Shown: positions 23,510 to 30,620 of the stretch, one piece after another | How the letters are laid out: every line of letters starts with the position of its first letter | Position numbering within the stretch: position 1 is the stretch's first letter | Assembly: GCA_944332225.1 (NCBI GenBank) | Contig: CALVJO010000006.1 | Span: 1-52,824 of the forward strand | Direction: 5' to 3' | Length of the DNA stretch: 52,824 nucleotides | Source: an uncultured Bacilli bacterium | GTDB lineage: Bacteria > Bacillota_I > Bacilli_A > RFN20 > CAG-449 | The notes under the pieces: model-generated | The model's input: the letters and a program-made list of their open reading frames with translations, nothing else | Told to the model about the DNA's origin: nothing | Database searches by the model: none | Made by a program: the position numbers and the translations under genes

Positions 23510-26500
23510 TTAATTTGCCTCCTCGTCATCATGATGGACAAATATCTTTTTGAGATTATCTTTATTGATTAAGAAGATGCAGACTAGAACTTCCGCAGCG
23601 CTTAATCCAAGTAAGACGCCGAAAGATATTTGAATTGCGTTAACTGCTTTAATCCAATCAGGAGTGATTTTATAGATTTTATCAGTCGCAGCGATACCGT
23701 TCATCGCATTAGAGTGAACGACAGTATATAAGATTCTATGCGCGCTTTCTCTCATCGCCCAAGCAAATTCACCATATTCACCAGTTCCTCCTTCGCTAGT
23801 AGGAGCTGCGAAATCAAAGGCACCATCGCTGATTCTTCCATCAGGTAAATCATTTCCGGTGAAGACGCTGACTGCAAAGTTTCCGCCCATTGCTGATGTA
23901 GTATCAGTAACAGCTGCTCCAGTCATACCAAATTCATCACGTAAGACAGTATTGAAGAATCCTTGAGTTCCAGAGCTCATCATACCGATTGAGTTAAGGC
24001 TTCCCATAACTCCTTGAGCCCCGTATTCAGAGATGGCGATTTCGTAAGGTTTTAAATAGATTTCTCTAATGGTTTGTTCATTAGCCCAGGTGAATCCGCC
24101 GCATCTATAAGTTTCTTGATCATTTAAGACGCAGTGCTTTAAGTAGACATAGGCTCCTCTAGTTGCCATACCTCTAACGGTTTCACCAGCGATGACACCC
24201 ATCAAGAGAGGATCTTCAGAATAATATTCGAAGTTTCTTCCGCCGTAAGCTGAACGATGGATATTCATTCCCATTCCATATAATCCAGCCATACCTGCCC
24301 AGAGCATATCTTCACCCCATTGGCAGCCATAGTAGTAAGCTAATTCTTTGTTAAATGTTGAAGCGACGATACCATTACATGGATAAACAACTGGAGATTC
24401 ATTCTTTAATGAATCGTTCTTTCTAGTTGCTAATCCTTGCTCGTTAGCCCCGCCGATGCTGTAGCCTTGGTTTGGTCCATTACCACCATTATGGTCAATG
24501 ACTGCAGGTTTAGAAACAGAACCCATAGCTACGTTCTTTCTTTCACCATCGGATAATAAGCTAACTAAATCATCCCAAGTCATTTGATCTAATAAGTCAT
24601 CCCACATTGGATCATTATAATCGATCCATTCATCGTTAGTTGGATCTTCATCCTCGTCAGCTTTCGCTCTTAACATAGCAAGTGTGTATGAAGTGCTAGT
24701 CGAACCAAATGTTGGATATCCTCTATCAGAAGTTTTAGCTTCTTCAGGGATTAAGGTTGGTTGAGCTCCGCAGCTAGTTACTCCTCCCCAGCTCTTTTCT
24801 AAGTCATCTTTCATCTGTTGAGTTGGGATAACTACTTCGCGATCATAAGTTCTTGTGTTATCAGCATTTAAACCATATTTAACTGTTCCAGTCCAATCAG
24901 AACGAGAAATATAATCAACGTGATTGGCTTCATTAGCGTTATCATAGATATTTAAATCTGCGTTATCAAATTTATTAGTAATTTGATTTCCGGTAGCTAA
25001 TGATGTGCTATAAGTAGTTTTATCTTCTTCTTTATCGAAGGAATAAACCATTTCAGGATCACCAGCTTCAGTCATACCATCTTGAGTAGTATAACCTTTA
25101 TCAGCTAAGATATTGTTAATTGCCTCATGGGAATCTTTAGCAACAGTAAAGTAGTAAGTTCCTTCATCGACAACATAAGTTTTCGCGTCATATGAATCAT
25201 AAGAAGCTAAATCTTTTCCGCTGACTTCCATAGTGATGGTCGCTGTTTGTCCTGATTCTAGTAATGGAGTTTTTCCAAAGTCTACTAATTCAACAGAAGC
25301 TTTTTCAATTCCACCTTCAATATATGGCTTTTGTAAATATAATTGAACGGCTTCTTTTGCTGTAACATCACCGGTATTGGTAACATCTACCGTAATCGTG
25401 TATTTATCATATAATTTATGATCGATTTCTTCAGTTCCAGGAACGACATTAAAGTTAGAATATTCAAATGTTGAATAAGATAAGCCATAGCCAAAAGGAT
25501 AAGCAACCGCTTGATTATAATCAAAGTTACCTGCGTTACCTTTCTTCATGACAAAGTCTTCATAGCGGGTCTCTGTATAACGATATCCCATATAGATACC
25601 TTCTTGATAGACGATGTTTTCAATGCTATCGGTATCAGTGTCGGTTCCAGCATTAACCGCGTTTTGGAATGTGCTAGCAGAGGTTTGTCTCCATTGATTT
25701 ACTAGAGGGCTCTCTGCTCCGTTAACTAAAGTTCCATAGTTAGCTAAAACTGGATTAAGGTAATGATATTTCCAGAAAGTATCAGATAATTTTCCTGAAG
25801 GAGAAATTGCCCCACTTAAGACTTCACCGATTGCGTAAGCACCTTGAGACCCCCAAGATCCTGCCCAGATTAATCCATCGATACCAATTTCATCGACGAA
25901 ATCGCATTGAACAGGGTTAGCTGAGTTCATGATGACGATGACGCTATCGAAGACTCCATTATCTCTCTGCGCGCATAAATTAGTTAAAATGTCTCTTTCA
26001 GTATCTGATAATTTAAGATAGTTTCCATCTTTATAATCGACTGTATAATTGCTACCGAAGACATTAAAGTTATTATCATCTTCATAAGCCGTTAGATCCA
26101 TACCTTCGCCGCCGGTACGAGAAAGAACGAACACCGCAGCATTAGCTCTTTGATTTTTAGCTTCTGGTAAAACATCCCAAGGTGCATCGCCAATAGTTGC
26201 AAATTTACCAACGCCGGATGCTCCAGCTGGCCATTGTCTACCGTATGTTCCAAAATTTTCTTCATACCAGGTGTATAAATCGCGGTTTACAGTTAAACCA
26301 GCGTCTTCAATACCATCGATTAAAGAAACGTTTTCCGTTCCTCCGCCTCCTGAGCCAGTACCACTTAAGATAGGTTGAACGGATGAAGTTGAGAATAAGC
26401 TAACGCTAGCTCCTTCACCTAAAGGTAAAACTGGATTGCCTTCTTTATTACTATTTTTTAAAAGGGTCAAGCCTTCATCGACTACTGTTTCCGCGTAAAC

Positions 26501-26746
26501 TCTACCATTATTCTTAACATCAGATAGATTATCAAATGCTGACTTATAATATTCTAAGTCACGATATCTTGCATCTGGATCTGGTTCAAGTATCTGAGTA
26601 GGTTGATTGAGGAAGGCAGAGATTGTTCCTGCATTTTCCATAGCAATCGAACTAGCAGTAGAAATGATAGCAAATAAAACTGTGGTTGCAGTTAAGCAGA
26701 TTTTACCTGTCAACAATAAACCTTTTAGATGTTTTGATTTTGACAT
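23510..26746 (-). CDS. Membrane-anchored GH3 glycoside hydrolase with permuted domain order
   Basis: A 1078-residue family-3 glycosidase whose domains run in reverse order. First comes an N-terminal membrane segment (about 10-35), then the GH3 C-terminal alpha/beta domain (from EGLTLLKN to YPFGYGLSYS). A fibronectin-III-like domain (VTNTGDVTAKEAVQLYLQKP) follows, then the GH3 TIM barrel (AVIDHNGGNG, NIHRSAYGGRNFEYYSEDP, YLKHCVLND). The barrel holds the likely nucleophile Asp in AAVTDTT. A second membrane helix closes the C-terminus. Reverse-order GH3 enzymes are known from rumen bacteria. The usual SDW nucleophile motif is VTDT here. Substrate is unknown. GGAGGAAATG supports the start. Confidence 0.87.
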   Translation of the reverse strand: MSKSKHLKGLLLTGKICLTATTVLFAIISTASSIAMENAGTISAFLNQPTQILEPDPDARYRDLEYYKSAFDNLSDVKNNGRVYAETVVDEGLTLLKNSNKEGNPVLPLGEGASVSLFSTSSVQPILSGTGSGGGGTENVSLIDGIEDAGLTVNRDLYTWYEENFGTYGRQWPAGASGVGKFATIGDAPWDVLPEAKNQRANAAVFVLSRTGGEGMDLTAYEDDNNFNVFGSNYTVDYKDGNYLKLSDTERDILTNLCAQRDNGVFDSVIVIMNSANPVQCDFVDEIGIDGLIWAGSWGSQGAYAIGEVLSGAISPSGKLSDTFWKYHYLNPVLANYGTLVNGAESPLVNQWRQTSASTFQNAVNAGTDTDTDSIENIVYQEGIYMGYRYTETRYEDFVMKKGNAGNFDYNQAVAYPFGYGLSYSTFEYSNFNVVPGTEEIDHKLYDKYTITVDVTNTGDVTAKEAVQLYLQKPYIEGGIEKASVELVDFGKTPLLESGQTATITMEVSGKDLASYDSYDAKTYVVDEGTYYFTVAKDSHEAINNILADKGYTTQDGMTEAGDPEMVYSFDKEEDKTTYSTSLATGNQITNKFDNADLNIYDNANEANHVDYISRSDWTGTVKYGLNADNTRTYDREVVIPTQQMKDDLEKSWGGVTSCGAQPTLIPEEAKTSDRGYPTFGSTSTSYTLAMLRAKADEDEDPTNDEWIDYNDPMWDDLLDQMTWDDLVSLLSDGERKNVAMGSVSKPAVIDHNGGNGPNQGYSIGGANEQGLATRKNDSLKNESPVVYPCNGIVASTFNKELAYYYGCQWGEDMLWAGMAGLYGMGMNIHRSAYGGRNFEYYSEDPLLMGVIAGETVRGMATRGAYVYLKHCVLNDQETYRCGGFTWANEQTIREIYLKPYEIAISEYGAQGVMGSLNSIGMMSSGTQGFFNTVLRDEFGMTGAAVTDTTSAMGGNFAVSVFTGNDLPDGRISDGAFDFAAPTSEGGTGEYGEFAWAMRESAHRILYTVVHSNAMNGIAATDKIYKITPDWIKAVNAIQISFGVLLGLSAAEVLVCIFLINKDNLKKIFVHHDDEEAN

Positions 26747-27216
26747 ACTTCATTTCCTCCTTCATTTTCAGTTTGTTTAATTTGTTTAGATTGTCTTAAA
26801 AAGACAGAAGCGATGCTAACGCCTAAAATAAGTAAGAATAAGATGATGCTGCATAGATAGCCATAGTAAGTTGTAACTATAGCTTGCATTGTGATTCCAC
26901 CAAAGAATTGGGTTGTAAAATACCAATAACCATCTTTAATGAATAGCATAAAAGCAGCAAGTTCAAGGACGCCTAAAGCAACAGGTGCCAATGACTCTGT
27001 CCATTTTGTTAAGGATAATCCTACTCCTAGGATAATAGCAAAAACGGAACAGATGACGGCAGGTTGGCTAAAGTATTGAGCGTAATCCATTGTAGAAAAA
27101 GCTACAGAATAGATGATTACTTCAATGACAGACAATAAAACTCCACCCATTGTGAAGTAAAAGCCTATCCCGCGTCGTTTAAAGAAATTTTTAATTCCTA
27201 AGATAACGTTTTGCAT
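26725..27216 (-). CDS. Four-helix membrane protein of the GH3 operon
   Basis: A 163-residue integral membrane protein with four hydrophobic helices and a short basic N-terminus and charged C-terminus. I do not recognise a named family. AAGGAG precedes the start. It is the first gene of the operon and overlaps the GH3 gene by 22 bases, so the two proteins are translationally coupled and may form a membrane unit, but no transport motif is visible. Confidence 0.7.
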   Translation of the reverse strand: MQNVILGIKNFFKRRGIGFYFTMGGVLLSVIEVIIYSVAFSTMDYAQYFSQPAVICSVFAIILGVGLSLTKWTESLAPVALGVLELAAFMLFIKDGYWYFTTQFFGGITMQAIVTTYYGYLCSIILFLLILGVSIASVFLRQSKQIKQTENEGGNEVCQNQNI

Positions 27217-27451: not shown

Positions 27452-27485
27452 AAAAAAAGACCCCTAGAAATTAATCTAGAGGTCT
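27452..27485 (-). terminator. Rho-independent terminator after the 27499-30476 locus
   Basis: On the minus strand AGACCTCTAGA pairs with TCTAGGGGTCT (11 bp, one U-G wobble) around a six-base loop, followed by seven T. It lies just past the stop of the frame-shifted domain copy. Confidence 0.85.
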
Positions 27486-27498
27486 AAGTTTTTATCTC

Positions 27499-28065
27499 CT
27501 AAATTGAGGTAAAATCTTGCTTTTGATAAGATTCATTCTTAGTTAGTTTTTTTATCTCCGCGACGATTCTAATAAGCTCTTTACATCTTCTAAATAATAA
27601 TTCAGATCTTATTTTTACTGTGAACGGAACATCTTTATAAGATGGTTTCTCCGCTAAAGAGAATTGATTATAGCGTTCAAACGGTAAGGTTGGATCGTTT
27701 GGATCGAGAGCAAGATGCAATCTGACAATCTTTCCAGAAATTGAAAGCTTAGCCACGATTTCGCCATCTTTAGTGAACTCTTCATTCTTGAATGTCATAT
27801 TAGCTTCTAATCCAAATGACAATAATAGATTCTTTAAATCAGAATAATAGAGTCGGCTGCGAGGAGAAATATCATTAAACTTTTCAGTAAATGGAACCCT
27901 AACTATCGATGAATCATCATTATTGATTGGGGTTTCACTTTCTTCGTCATTATCATCAGGATCATCATCGAAATCATCTTCGATTGTAGCTTGATCCTCT
28001 AAAGATTCTGCTTCATCGTTATCATTAACAAACGGTGAGTAGACAACATCTTCTACATCAAAAGT
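27499..28065 (-). CDS. Frame-shifted second copy of the unknown domain (C-terminal part of the 28053-30476 protein)
   Basis: An open frame of 188 codons in the -1 frame relative to the gene at 28053-30476, entered at the A9 run. It starts KTFDVEDVVYSPF, continues through a highly acidic linker (DDFDDDPDDNDEESE) and ends in a domain (VAKLSISGKIVRLHLALD, FSLAEKPSYKDVPFTVKIRS) that closely matches the upstream protein (VAKMTISGKTLRLHLALD, FSLGEKHAFKDVPFTVKVKS). There is no ATG, GTG or TTG in frame before a TTG at 27822, so it is unlikely to start on its own at full length. A gene caller would give only 107 residues (27499-27822). The copy lacks the last 130 residues of the upstream domain. Confidence 0.7.
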   Translation of the reverse strand, partial: TFDVEDVVYSPFVNDNDEAESLEDQATIEDDFDDDPDDNDEESETPINNDDSSIVRVPFTEKFNDISPRSRLYYSDLKNLLLSFGLEANMTFKNEEFTKDGEIVAKLSISGKIVRLHLALDPNDPTLPFERYNQFSLAEKPSYKDVPFTVKIRSELLFRRCKELIRIVAEIKKLTKNESYQKQDFTSI

Positions 28066-30476
28066 TTTTTTTTATAGAAGAACACTTTTCCGTGAGTTGC
28101 TAAGACGGCAACCGCGACATTTAAATCGATATCATCACAGATGACGGTGATAGGTTCGCTCACCGCTTCATGCATCTTAACGAAGATTCTTTGAGTTGAT
28201 AGAGGAATCTCGTTGCAGGCTTTTAATGAATCGATTGAGATAGTCTTATCTGCGACATATTTTAATGCGGTCTCAATATAGACGTTTTGACTCTCGCCAT
28301 CTTCATGGTTAAGTCCATCATCAAATTCAACTGCAGGAATTAACGAGCAAATCATATTAACCGAAGGTAATTTGTTTCCATCAAATCTAGCTGCGTAGAA
28401 TTCATCAGCCGAATCAGTCATATGCTCGGTGATACCTAATTTTTCAAAAATTGCATCTCCGTCGATTTCAATATCTTTTGTGAAATCATAAACTTCATAA
28501 TTTTTCTTGAATCTAAATTTACGATCTTGACATAAAATCTTAATTAAATCGCAAGCTCTTCTACATCCGAGGTCTGATTTAACTTTGACGGTAAATGGAA
28601 CATCCTTGAAGGCATGTTTTTCACCTAAAGAGAATTGATGGTATTTAGTGACTTCAAATCTCTCGTCTTCAACATCTAAGGCAAGGTGTAATCTTAATGT
28701 CTTACCAGAGATAGTCATCTTTGCGACTAATCCACGTTTTCTAAAGGTTTCATTTTTATTAGTTAAACGAGATGTAACGCCGTATTGTAATAAAGTATTT
28801 TTAAGAGTTGAATAATATTCTTTAGTCTTAGTTGGTAAGAATTTTAACTTATTAATATAAGTACGTTTTGCAATTGTTCTAAAGACTTGAGTTTCTTCTC
28901 CTTCGCTTACTGGAACAACAACTGGTTCAACTTTAGTTTCTTCAACAGTTTCAACTACAGGTTCTTCTTCTAAGGCAATTGTAGTTTCTTCAACTGTTTC
29001 TTCCTTAGCTTCTTCTTGAGGCTCTTCGGTAGCTTCTTCCGCTACTGTCTCTTCAACAGGTGCCTCTTCGCTTAATTGAGGTTCTGCCTCTTCTTTCGCT
29101 ACAGCAGGTTCTTCGTAAACTGTTTCTTCTACAATCTCCTCAGCGATTGGTTCAGCTTCAGTTTCAGGAACATAAGGAATATCCTCAGCTAATAAACCTT
29201 CATAAACTTTTTTAGCTCTGTAAGCTAAGATGAAAAGTAAGATAAGGAATGCGATTCCGATAACTAACACTTTATATAAAGCATAGAAACCAACTAAAGG
29301 GATGGTGACGAATACTCCGCCGAACAAGCAGATTTCTAAGCAGATATCTAAAGTGTTAACCTTAGTTTCAACCATTTGCTTCTTGAATAAAGAAATGATG
29401 ATAGTAACTGCTAATAGAACTAAGATAATTGCAGTAATTACTAAGATTGTTAAGTTAACTGCGCCTTCAGTGATATTATTAATTCCGCAATAATCGACAT
29501 AGAAGAAACCATATGTAGCGATTGCTGCGATTAATACTACAGTTGGTAAAGATAATTTCTTTGCCATCTCAGAGAAATAATAAGAAGATGGGCGATCAGT
29601 TTTAAGCTTTTGTTTTGGCGCGCCTAAAGCTCTAAAGTAGGTGATAGCTAATAATCCAAATAAAATCATTAACCATACCGCGATTAAAGTCATGATAATG
29701 TATCTATTATATTTGTTTTCATAATAAGAAAGAGATATGCAGGAAGCAAATCCGATTACTACATAGATACAGAAGTGAACGATGTAATCGATAGCGTTTA
29801 ACTTTCTTAACGATTTAAAGATAGATAAAGCTAAAATGATAAGCAATATGATCATTGGAACTAAACCAACTATCATAATTTGCTCAGCTGGAGCAAAATC
29901 TGCAAATGCAGGAATTGCTTCCTCTAATAAGAAGATTCCATTCGCGTAGTAAGCAACGATTCCGAATACTAATCCTAAAACTAATCCGCTGATGATGAAT
30001 AACAATGGATTGAATGCTTTATAAAGATTTACAAAATAAGTTCCAAGTCCTGTAGATTCTTCATTTGTCTCGGTAATCTTCAACGCGCGGACAACTAAAA
30101 GAATTAATCCAAGAACCGCTAAGATAGTCCAAACAATAACTCGGACTGATGTGTTTTGGTCGTAACCGACCGAAAGACCAAAGCAAGCCAAGCTTATCCC
30201 TAAGAAAGTAACTAAGGAAACATCAGCTTTTGTAGAATACTTTTTGGTCAATCCTGGTAAGGAGAATAATAGGAATAATGCCGTGACAAACAATAAGAAA
30301 ATGTTCATTCCCATATTAAATGGTTCAACATAATCTGTTGGGAGAATTACATCAAAAAATCCTAATTGAACGGATAAAAAGCATCCTATTCCAAATAGGG
30401 CTCCCATGGCAAGGGCAAAGATTCCATCGATTTTTCCAAAAAAATCTTTAAAAAAGTTTGTTTGTTCTTTTTTCAT
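28053..30476 (-). CDS. Polytopic membrane protein with acidic linker and cytoplasmic domain of unknown function
   Basis: An 807-residue protein. Residues 1-440 contain about twelve membrane helices. Roughly 100 residues follow that are mostly Glu, Val, Ala, Thr and Pro (EEIVEETVYEEP type). Then comes a soluble domain of about 260 residues with the core motif VAKMTISGKTLRLHLALD and KHAFKDVPFTVKVKSD. I recall similar domains in many uncharacterised Firmicutes proteins, without known function. The reading frame ends three codons after an A9 run. Its ribosome site AAAGGGG can pair with an upstream ACCCCTTT (30547-30554). Confidence 0.75.
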   Translation of the reverse strand: MKKEQTNFFKDFFGKIDGIFALAMGALFGIGCFLSVQLGFFDVILPTDYVEPFNMGMNIFLLFVTALFLLFSLPGLTKKYSTKADVSLVTFLGISLACFGLSVGYDQNTSVRVIVWTILAVLGLILLVVRALKITETNEESTGLGTYFVNLYKAFNPLLFIISGLVLGLVFGIVAYYANGIFLLEEAIPAFADFAPAEQIMIVGLVPMIILLIILALSIFKSLRKLNAIDYIVHFCIYVVIGFASCISLSYYENKYNRYIIMTLIAVWLMILFGLLAITYFRALGAPKQKLKTDRPSSYYFSEMAKKLSLPTVVLIAAIATYGFFYVDYCGINNITEGAVNLTILVITAIILVLLAVTIIISLFKKQMVETKVNTLDICLEICLFGGVFVTIPLVGFYALYKVLVIGIAFLILLFILAYRAKKVYEGLLAEDIPYVPETEAEPIAEEIVEETVYEEPAVAKEEAEPQLSEEAPVEETVAEEATEEPQEEAKEETVEETTIALEEEPVVETVEETKVEPVVVPVSEGEETQVFRTIAKRTYINKLKFLPTKTKEYYSTLKNTLLQYGVTSRLTNKNETFRKRGLVAKMTISGKTLRLHLALDVEDERFEVTKYHQFSLGEKHAFKDVPFTVKVKSDLGCRRACDLIKILCQDRKFRFKKNYEVYDFTKDIEIDGDAIFEKLGITEHMTDSADEFYAARFDGNKLPSVNMICSLIPAVEFDDGLNHEDGESQNVYIETALKYVADKTISIDSLKACNEIPLSTQRIFVKMHEAVSEPITVICDDIDLNVAVAVLATHGKVFFYKKKLLM
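28065..28073 (-). other. A9 slippery run joining two reading frames
   Basis: Nine A in a row on the minus strand (codons AAA AAA AAA in the upstream gene) followed by CTT TTG ATG TAG. A -1 shift, or one extra A, joins the upstream frame to a 188-codon frame carrying a second copy of the same domain. The run contains A AAA AAA, a legal -1 slippery heptamer, and nine A is long enough for polymerase slippage. A sequencing or assembly miscount is the plain alternative. Confidence 0.75.
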
Positions 30477-30620
30477 AAAAGAAAACCCCTTTCATTTATC
30501 CCATTTTAATATTAAAAACTTATAAATGACAATATCTTTTTCTAAAAAAGGGGTAAAACGTATCTAAAAAACAGCAATTTTGGCAAAAATGTTTCCTAAT
30601 ATTTCGCTATATTGAAAAAA

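Follow-up and report, generated by a model that had tools for sequence, protein, structure and literature searches.

In an uncultured Bacilli bacterium, a gene for a membrane protein closes shortly after a run of nine A, and a second open frame beyond the run carries another copy of one of its domains. The question raised by this locus is whether the two frames are joined by recoding of the dnaX type, as the preliminary description proposed, or whether a base has been lost, and if so, whether from the cell or from the assembled sequence. We analyzed the locus in a window of 52,824 nt (positions 1 to 52,824 of contig CALVJO010000006.1, assembly GCA_944332225.1; features in Table 1).

The gene is an 807-codon ORF on the minus strand of the window, which reads as an 807-aa zero-frame product. 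Its end is TAT-A9-CTTTTGATG-TAG. After the run the zero frame adds Leu-Leu-Met, and the protein ends in KKKLLM. In the -1 frame, 188 codons beyond the run were open up to a TAG. The earliest ATG, GTG or TTG in this frame is a TTG at codon index 81, and an ATG follows at 89. An own start for the second frame is unlikely, since the first of these codons lies 81 codons in and inside the domain. The preliminary description was correct on the position of the stop three codons past the nine A, on the long open -1 frame with its acidic linker and second domain copy, and on the lack of a start codon in the first 80 codons. Its size for the short product (807 residues) also stood, but that for the read-through product (about 994) did not; a -1 shift gives 992.

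Hydropathy gave 16 raw hydrophobic stretches, one of them outside the membrane part; with overlapping stretches merged by eye, about 12 were counted, in agreement with the 12 transmembrane segments noticed earlier. The D1-D2 unit was modeled by AlphaFold2 with a mean pLDDT of 90.8. The second frame encodes acidic linker 2 followed by another D1, and lacks D2. That its domain is a copy of the first, as had been claimed, was borne out as true homology: copy 2 matched copy 1 with E=1.0e-31, and the copy 2 region of the relatives with E=4.3e-48.

Searches of Pfam and NCBIfam with copy 1 found no family, and sequence searches of the PDB gave nothing useful. By fold, the copy-2 model of D1 matched 9t2w (Z 8.0, rmsd 3.3, 105 aligned) and 2fki (Z 7.9, rmsd 3.7, 102 aligned). 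The first six fold matches had Z scores of 6.7-8.0, with YdhG, YjbR, DUF1801 and DUF419 proteins among them, and the best E in Foldseek was 0.013. The fold of D2 matched uL15 with a best Foldseek E of 3.8e-4 and a best Z of 8.3 (rmsd 2.3, 77 aligned). Pfam Ribosomal_L27A matched D2 in one of six members (E 9.3e-5), and hhalign of D2 against the genome's own uL15 was weak (probability 2.1). These matches suggested that D1 may be YjbR/YdhG-like and D2 uL15-like, a likeness of fold that points to no function.

Such a uL15-C-terminal-like domain adjoins a YjbR/YdhG-like domain in a membrane protein both in the window and in its relatives. Further membrane proteins of all three genus members (loci L003, L008 and L009; open frames of 632-665 codons), putatively SipW-like by resemblance, also carry D1 in their C-terminal half. 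A further break that would have shortened the second unit was considered and is not favored: copy 2 ends approximately where other one-module D1 proteins end, the terminator-like hairpin comes next, and the D2 half is absent.

Table 1. Features of the split gene and its flanks, in window coordinates
Feature	Position	Strand	Description
Promoter-like site	30503..30532	-	TTGTCA-18-TAAAAT, upstream of the ATG
Zero-frame ORF, 807 aa	28053..30476	-	about 12 TM segments, acidic linker, one D1-D2 unit
Membrane part, residues ~12-424	29205..30443	-	by hydropathy
Acidic linker 1	28887..29174	-	D/E at 36 of 96 residues
D1 domain, copy 1	28464..28892	-	putative YjbR/YdhG-like fold, taken from the copy-2 model
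D2 domain	28071..28310	-	sole copy in the gene here; similar to the uL15 ribosomal protein in its C-terminal part
A9 run at the frame break	28065..28073	-	A AAA AAA heptamer, zero frame
Zero-frame stop	28053..28055	-	TAG, from the sequence
Acidic linker 2, -1 frame	27907..28064	-	no ATG, GTG or TTG
D1 domain, copy 2, -1 frame	27502..27906	-	modeled as a complete domain (pLDDT 95.0)
-1 frame stop	27499..27501	-	TAG, from the sequence
Intrinsic-terminator-like hairpin	27458..27485	-	11-bp stem, then a T run; directly past the -1 frame stop

The gene was found in all three genomes of the genus that were compared, the window's own included. In both of the other members, which are MAGs of uncultured Bacilli, an uninterrupted 1114-codon open frame encodes the protein, with two D1-D2 units. 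The junction in both reads TAT ACT CCA AAA GAA TTT, with no homopolymer longer than 4. The relatives' FYTPKEFEVED and the window's FYKKK/TFDVED aligned without a gap only via a -1 shift, and around the junction the window matched the relatives residue for residue once its reading was shifted by -1 at the A9. Compared with the relatives' frame, the window lacks exactly one base.

Under recoding, the preliminary description had expected related genomes to carry a conserved run of A with both frames intact, and continuous relatives free of the homopolymer were to speak against it. The latter was what we found in both genus members, and conserved recoding was rejected on this ground. A search of viral contigs for the junction pattern gave no hit. 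A scan of genome contigs gave the two genus members only, in a set from which the window's own genome may be missing.

In the family, 17 of 18 genomes had a match. Three of these (G007-G009) encode single-unit proteins in open frames of 752 to 780 codons, and the ends of these proteins aligned to the Lys triplet of the window. The break thus sits where the single-copy orthologues stop, and from this alignment the 807-aa product looks like a complete protein. At the order level, 103 of 147 genomes matched (E up to 1e-10), chiefly in the linker and D1 part, and some proteins had several matches.

The upstream neighbors are common to the window and both genus members. The gene order downstream (window 23510-27216, minus strand) differs from that at the relatives' loci L010 and L011, and the 3' end of the gene adjoins this synteny break. 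The gene downstream in the window encodes 1078 aa and is presumably GH3-like by resemblance.

Within the window, no run other than this A9 reaches nine bases. The 1.33-Mb assembly has 94 A8 and five A9 runs, none of A10-A15 and two A16, both in copies of one repeat. A second A9, in a gene that we take to be gpsA-like, stands in frame. On contig C14 of the same assembly, A8 and A16 runs recurred at a spacing of exactly 10,542 bp (17645/28187/38729; 26890/37432); a repeating unit of roughly 10.5 kb, which might be a circular element, may have been assembled there as a concatemer.

Lys-Lys-Lys triplets were counted in a sample of 344,824 bases (31% G+C), which yielded 238 non-overlapping ORFs of 150 codons or more. 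Only one of 54 triplets was written as nine A, against 21.6 expected from the Lys codon bias, and that one was the present site. The shortage is significant by a binomial test (P=3.6e-11), in which overlapping windows are not fully independent. The genome avoids nine-A Lys triplets, and the A9 here is unusual. Of the 54 triplets, 33 have a codon pattern in which the loss of one base, followed by ACT, yields A9-CT. With nine-A triplets so rare, the loss of a G would be the simplest origin of the run. A single step would suffice: one G lost from AAG AAA AAA or AAA AAG AAA, followed by ACT, would create the A9 and shift the frame at once.

We favor, with modest confidence, a real, recent and lineage-specific loss of one base at the hinge between tandem domain units, after which the one-unit protein is mainly made and leakage into the second frame is tolerated. 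The main product would be the 807-aa membrane protein with one D1-D2 unit, ending like its single-copy orthologues. Slippage at the A9, either by RNA polymerase (one A added) or by the ribosome (-1), would give some 992-aa protein with an extra D1. This reading draws on the sequence of one genome of the species.

The two frames may lie on one transcript, as judged from the terminator-like hairpin past the second frame and the promoter-like site before the ATG. In the region, two terminator-like hairpins were found against 1.5 expected, and 14 promoter-like sites against 14.9, no more than in shuffles. The A9 itself is of a kind known to be slippery, as the preliminary description had held. The nine-A cassette of magnesium chelatase is described as giving about 40% shift in an E. 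coli reporter (PMC3711429), and bacterial RNA polymerase is reported to slip well on nine A or T (PMC5009743). The present site also has the form of slippage-corrected genes, an indel in a run of about nine or more A in a gene otherwise in frame. A study across the transcriptomes of E. coli and Buchnera is reported to have detected no reading frame restored by transcription error (PMC5574713). Leaky slippage at the A9 is plausible by analogy, and since such a run is slippery for RNA polymerases and ribosomes alike, some 992-aa product is probably still made, perhaps as a minority. The best reading is that this leakage is tolerated, rather than a programmed switch.

The base might be missing only from the data, through a sequencing or assembly artefact or a mixture of strains, and the true gene would then be continuous like that of the relatives. 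The assembly is a draft of 48 contigs, and the 188 codons of the -1 frame have no stop, as this explanation would have it. According to PMC3711429, an isolated frame break backed by database matches should be expected to reflect a sequencing error, not a real indel. However, a miscalled longer run would require a true A10, and in a genome with no A10-A15 an in-frame A10 would be unique. The break also falls exactly at the end of a domain.

A survey of split frames bore on the same point. It covered 344,824 bases (the window and 15 other stretches, 26% of the assembly) and sought startless frames that continue an upstream frame. Under its rule the present gene was the only case. With the strict start rule and a 60-codon minimum, there were two real cases, and 40 of 144 simulated one-base deletions were recovered; two looser settings gave 6 and 12 candidates and recovered 67 and 95 of the 144. 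Indels look rare in this genome, though the strict survey would miss most. Together with the absence of a second split frame under the survey rule, these points left the artefact rather unlikely.

With no stop in the 188 codons of the second frame, the break must be young, if it is real, or the frame is still used. Were the whole difference between copy 2 and its orthologue neutral, 5.1 stops should have arisen, and only 0.7% of the simulated runs were free of them (P(0)=0.007). With neutrality confined to the last 7% of identity, 35% of the runs had no stop. The second frame was therefore in use over most of its past. Branch lengths were 0.75 for copy 2 against 0.17 in the relatives, and 0.34 against 0.22 for copy 1. 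When copy 1 of the relatives served as outgroup, the relative-rate counts for copy 2 were 27:4; four other outgroups gave 19:10, 15:11, 18:11 and 19:8. Relaxed selection or faster evolution of copy 2 is possible from these counts, in a signal not robust to the outgroup. The codon-position G+C of the -1 frame is gene-like and does not separate the models.

Several of these features would also suit a young programmed recoding site, in which selection keeps the A9 for a fixed ratio of 807-aa and 992-aa products through RNA-polymerase slippage or a -1 ribosomal shift. The heptamer A AAA AAA before CTT is in phase with both frames, and the zero-frame stop comes three codons on. Both products are made of whole domains, the terminator-like hairpin stands only past the second frame, the A9 stands in a genome that avoids nine-A Lys triplets, and the stops expected under neutrality are missing. 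On the other hand, the site is conserved in neither of the two genus members, and copy 2 evolves no slower than its orthologue. No SD-like motif (GAGG, GGAG, AGGA, GGNGG or AGGKG) was present in the 30 bases upstream of the run, and the downstream RNA folded no better than shuffles (z of -0.35, 0.20 and -0.78). Such stimulators are described as absent from some proven frameshift sites (PMC4066793). Nothing pointed to a ratio fixed by selection, and the relatives lack the site; therefore we did not file the gene as programmed recoding, and the dnaX-type scheme of the preliminary description went unsupported. A young programmed site appeared improbable to us.

A recoding switch at its birth, in which a continuous two-domain gene has just become one base short and polymerase slippage at the A9 sets the copy number of a soluble domain on a 12-TM protein, we hold to be quite doubtful as well. 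Phase variation, with replication slippage at the run toggling the second domain between cells, would fit a long A run in a membrane-protein gene, a layout known for slipped-strand phase variation (PMC3711429), but is highly improbable: the run is just nine bases long, the window's other runs are all shorter, and even the off state keeps a whole protein.

If the one-base loss is real, as we favor, the gene would illustrate clearly how a single event, exactly at a domain border, can create both a frame break and a slippery run that partly undoes it. This would offer a testable route by which recoding sites may arise from ordinary genes. If the break is an artefact, the case calls for caution in inferring recoding from a single draft genome.

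In E. coli dnaX, the early stop lies in the -1 frame, and stimulators are known. In the present gene it is the zero frame that stops early, and the search for stimulators came up empty. The two share an A-rich heptamer near the stop, at which E. coli dnaX undergoes -1 ribosomal frameshifting (PMC5009743). The same source mentions a reversed dnaX layout as a candidate. Thermus thermophilus dnaX resembles our gene in its slippery run of nine T/A and in the two product lengths expected (PMC5009743). There the zero frame encodes the long form, and experiments have demonstrated slippage, whereas here a long form would need the shift. The frame-transition genes of magnesium chelatase have a -1 transition at 7-11 A and continuous fused homologues elsewhere, as does the present gene, but are described as recurring in six genera (PMC3711429), and the break here was in one genome.

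Poly-A frameshifted genes have been described in Blochmannia (PMC3017870). Like our case, those of Blochmannia and Buchnera have, in that source, one base gained or lost within a run of A in a particular lineage, are otherwise in frame and may be rescued by transcriptional slippage. A single-copy essential gene is hit there, whereas here the break severs a second domain copy, the genome avoids such runs, and the genus members are MAGs of uncultured Bacilli. The most likely verdict on the locus is a frame break private to this lineage, its kind being known already.
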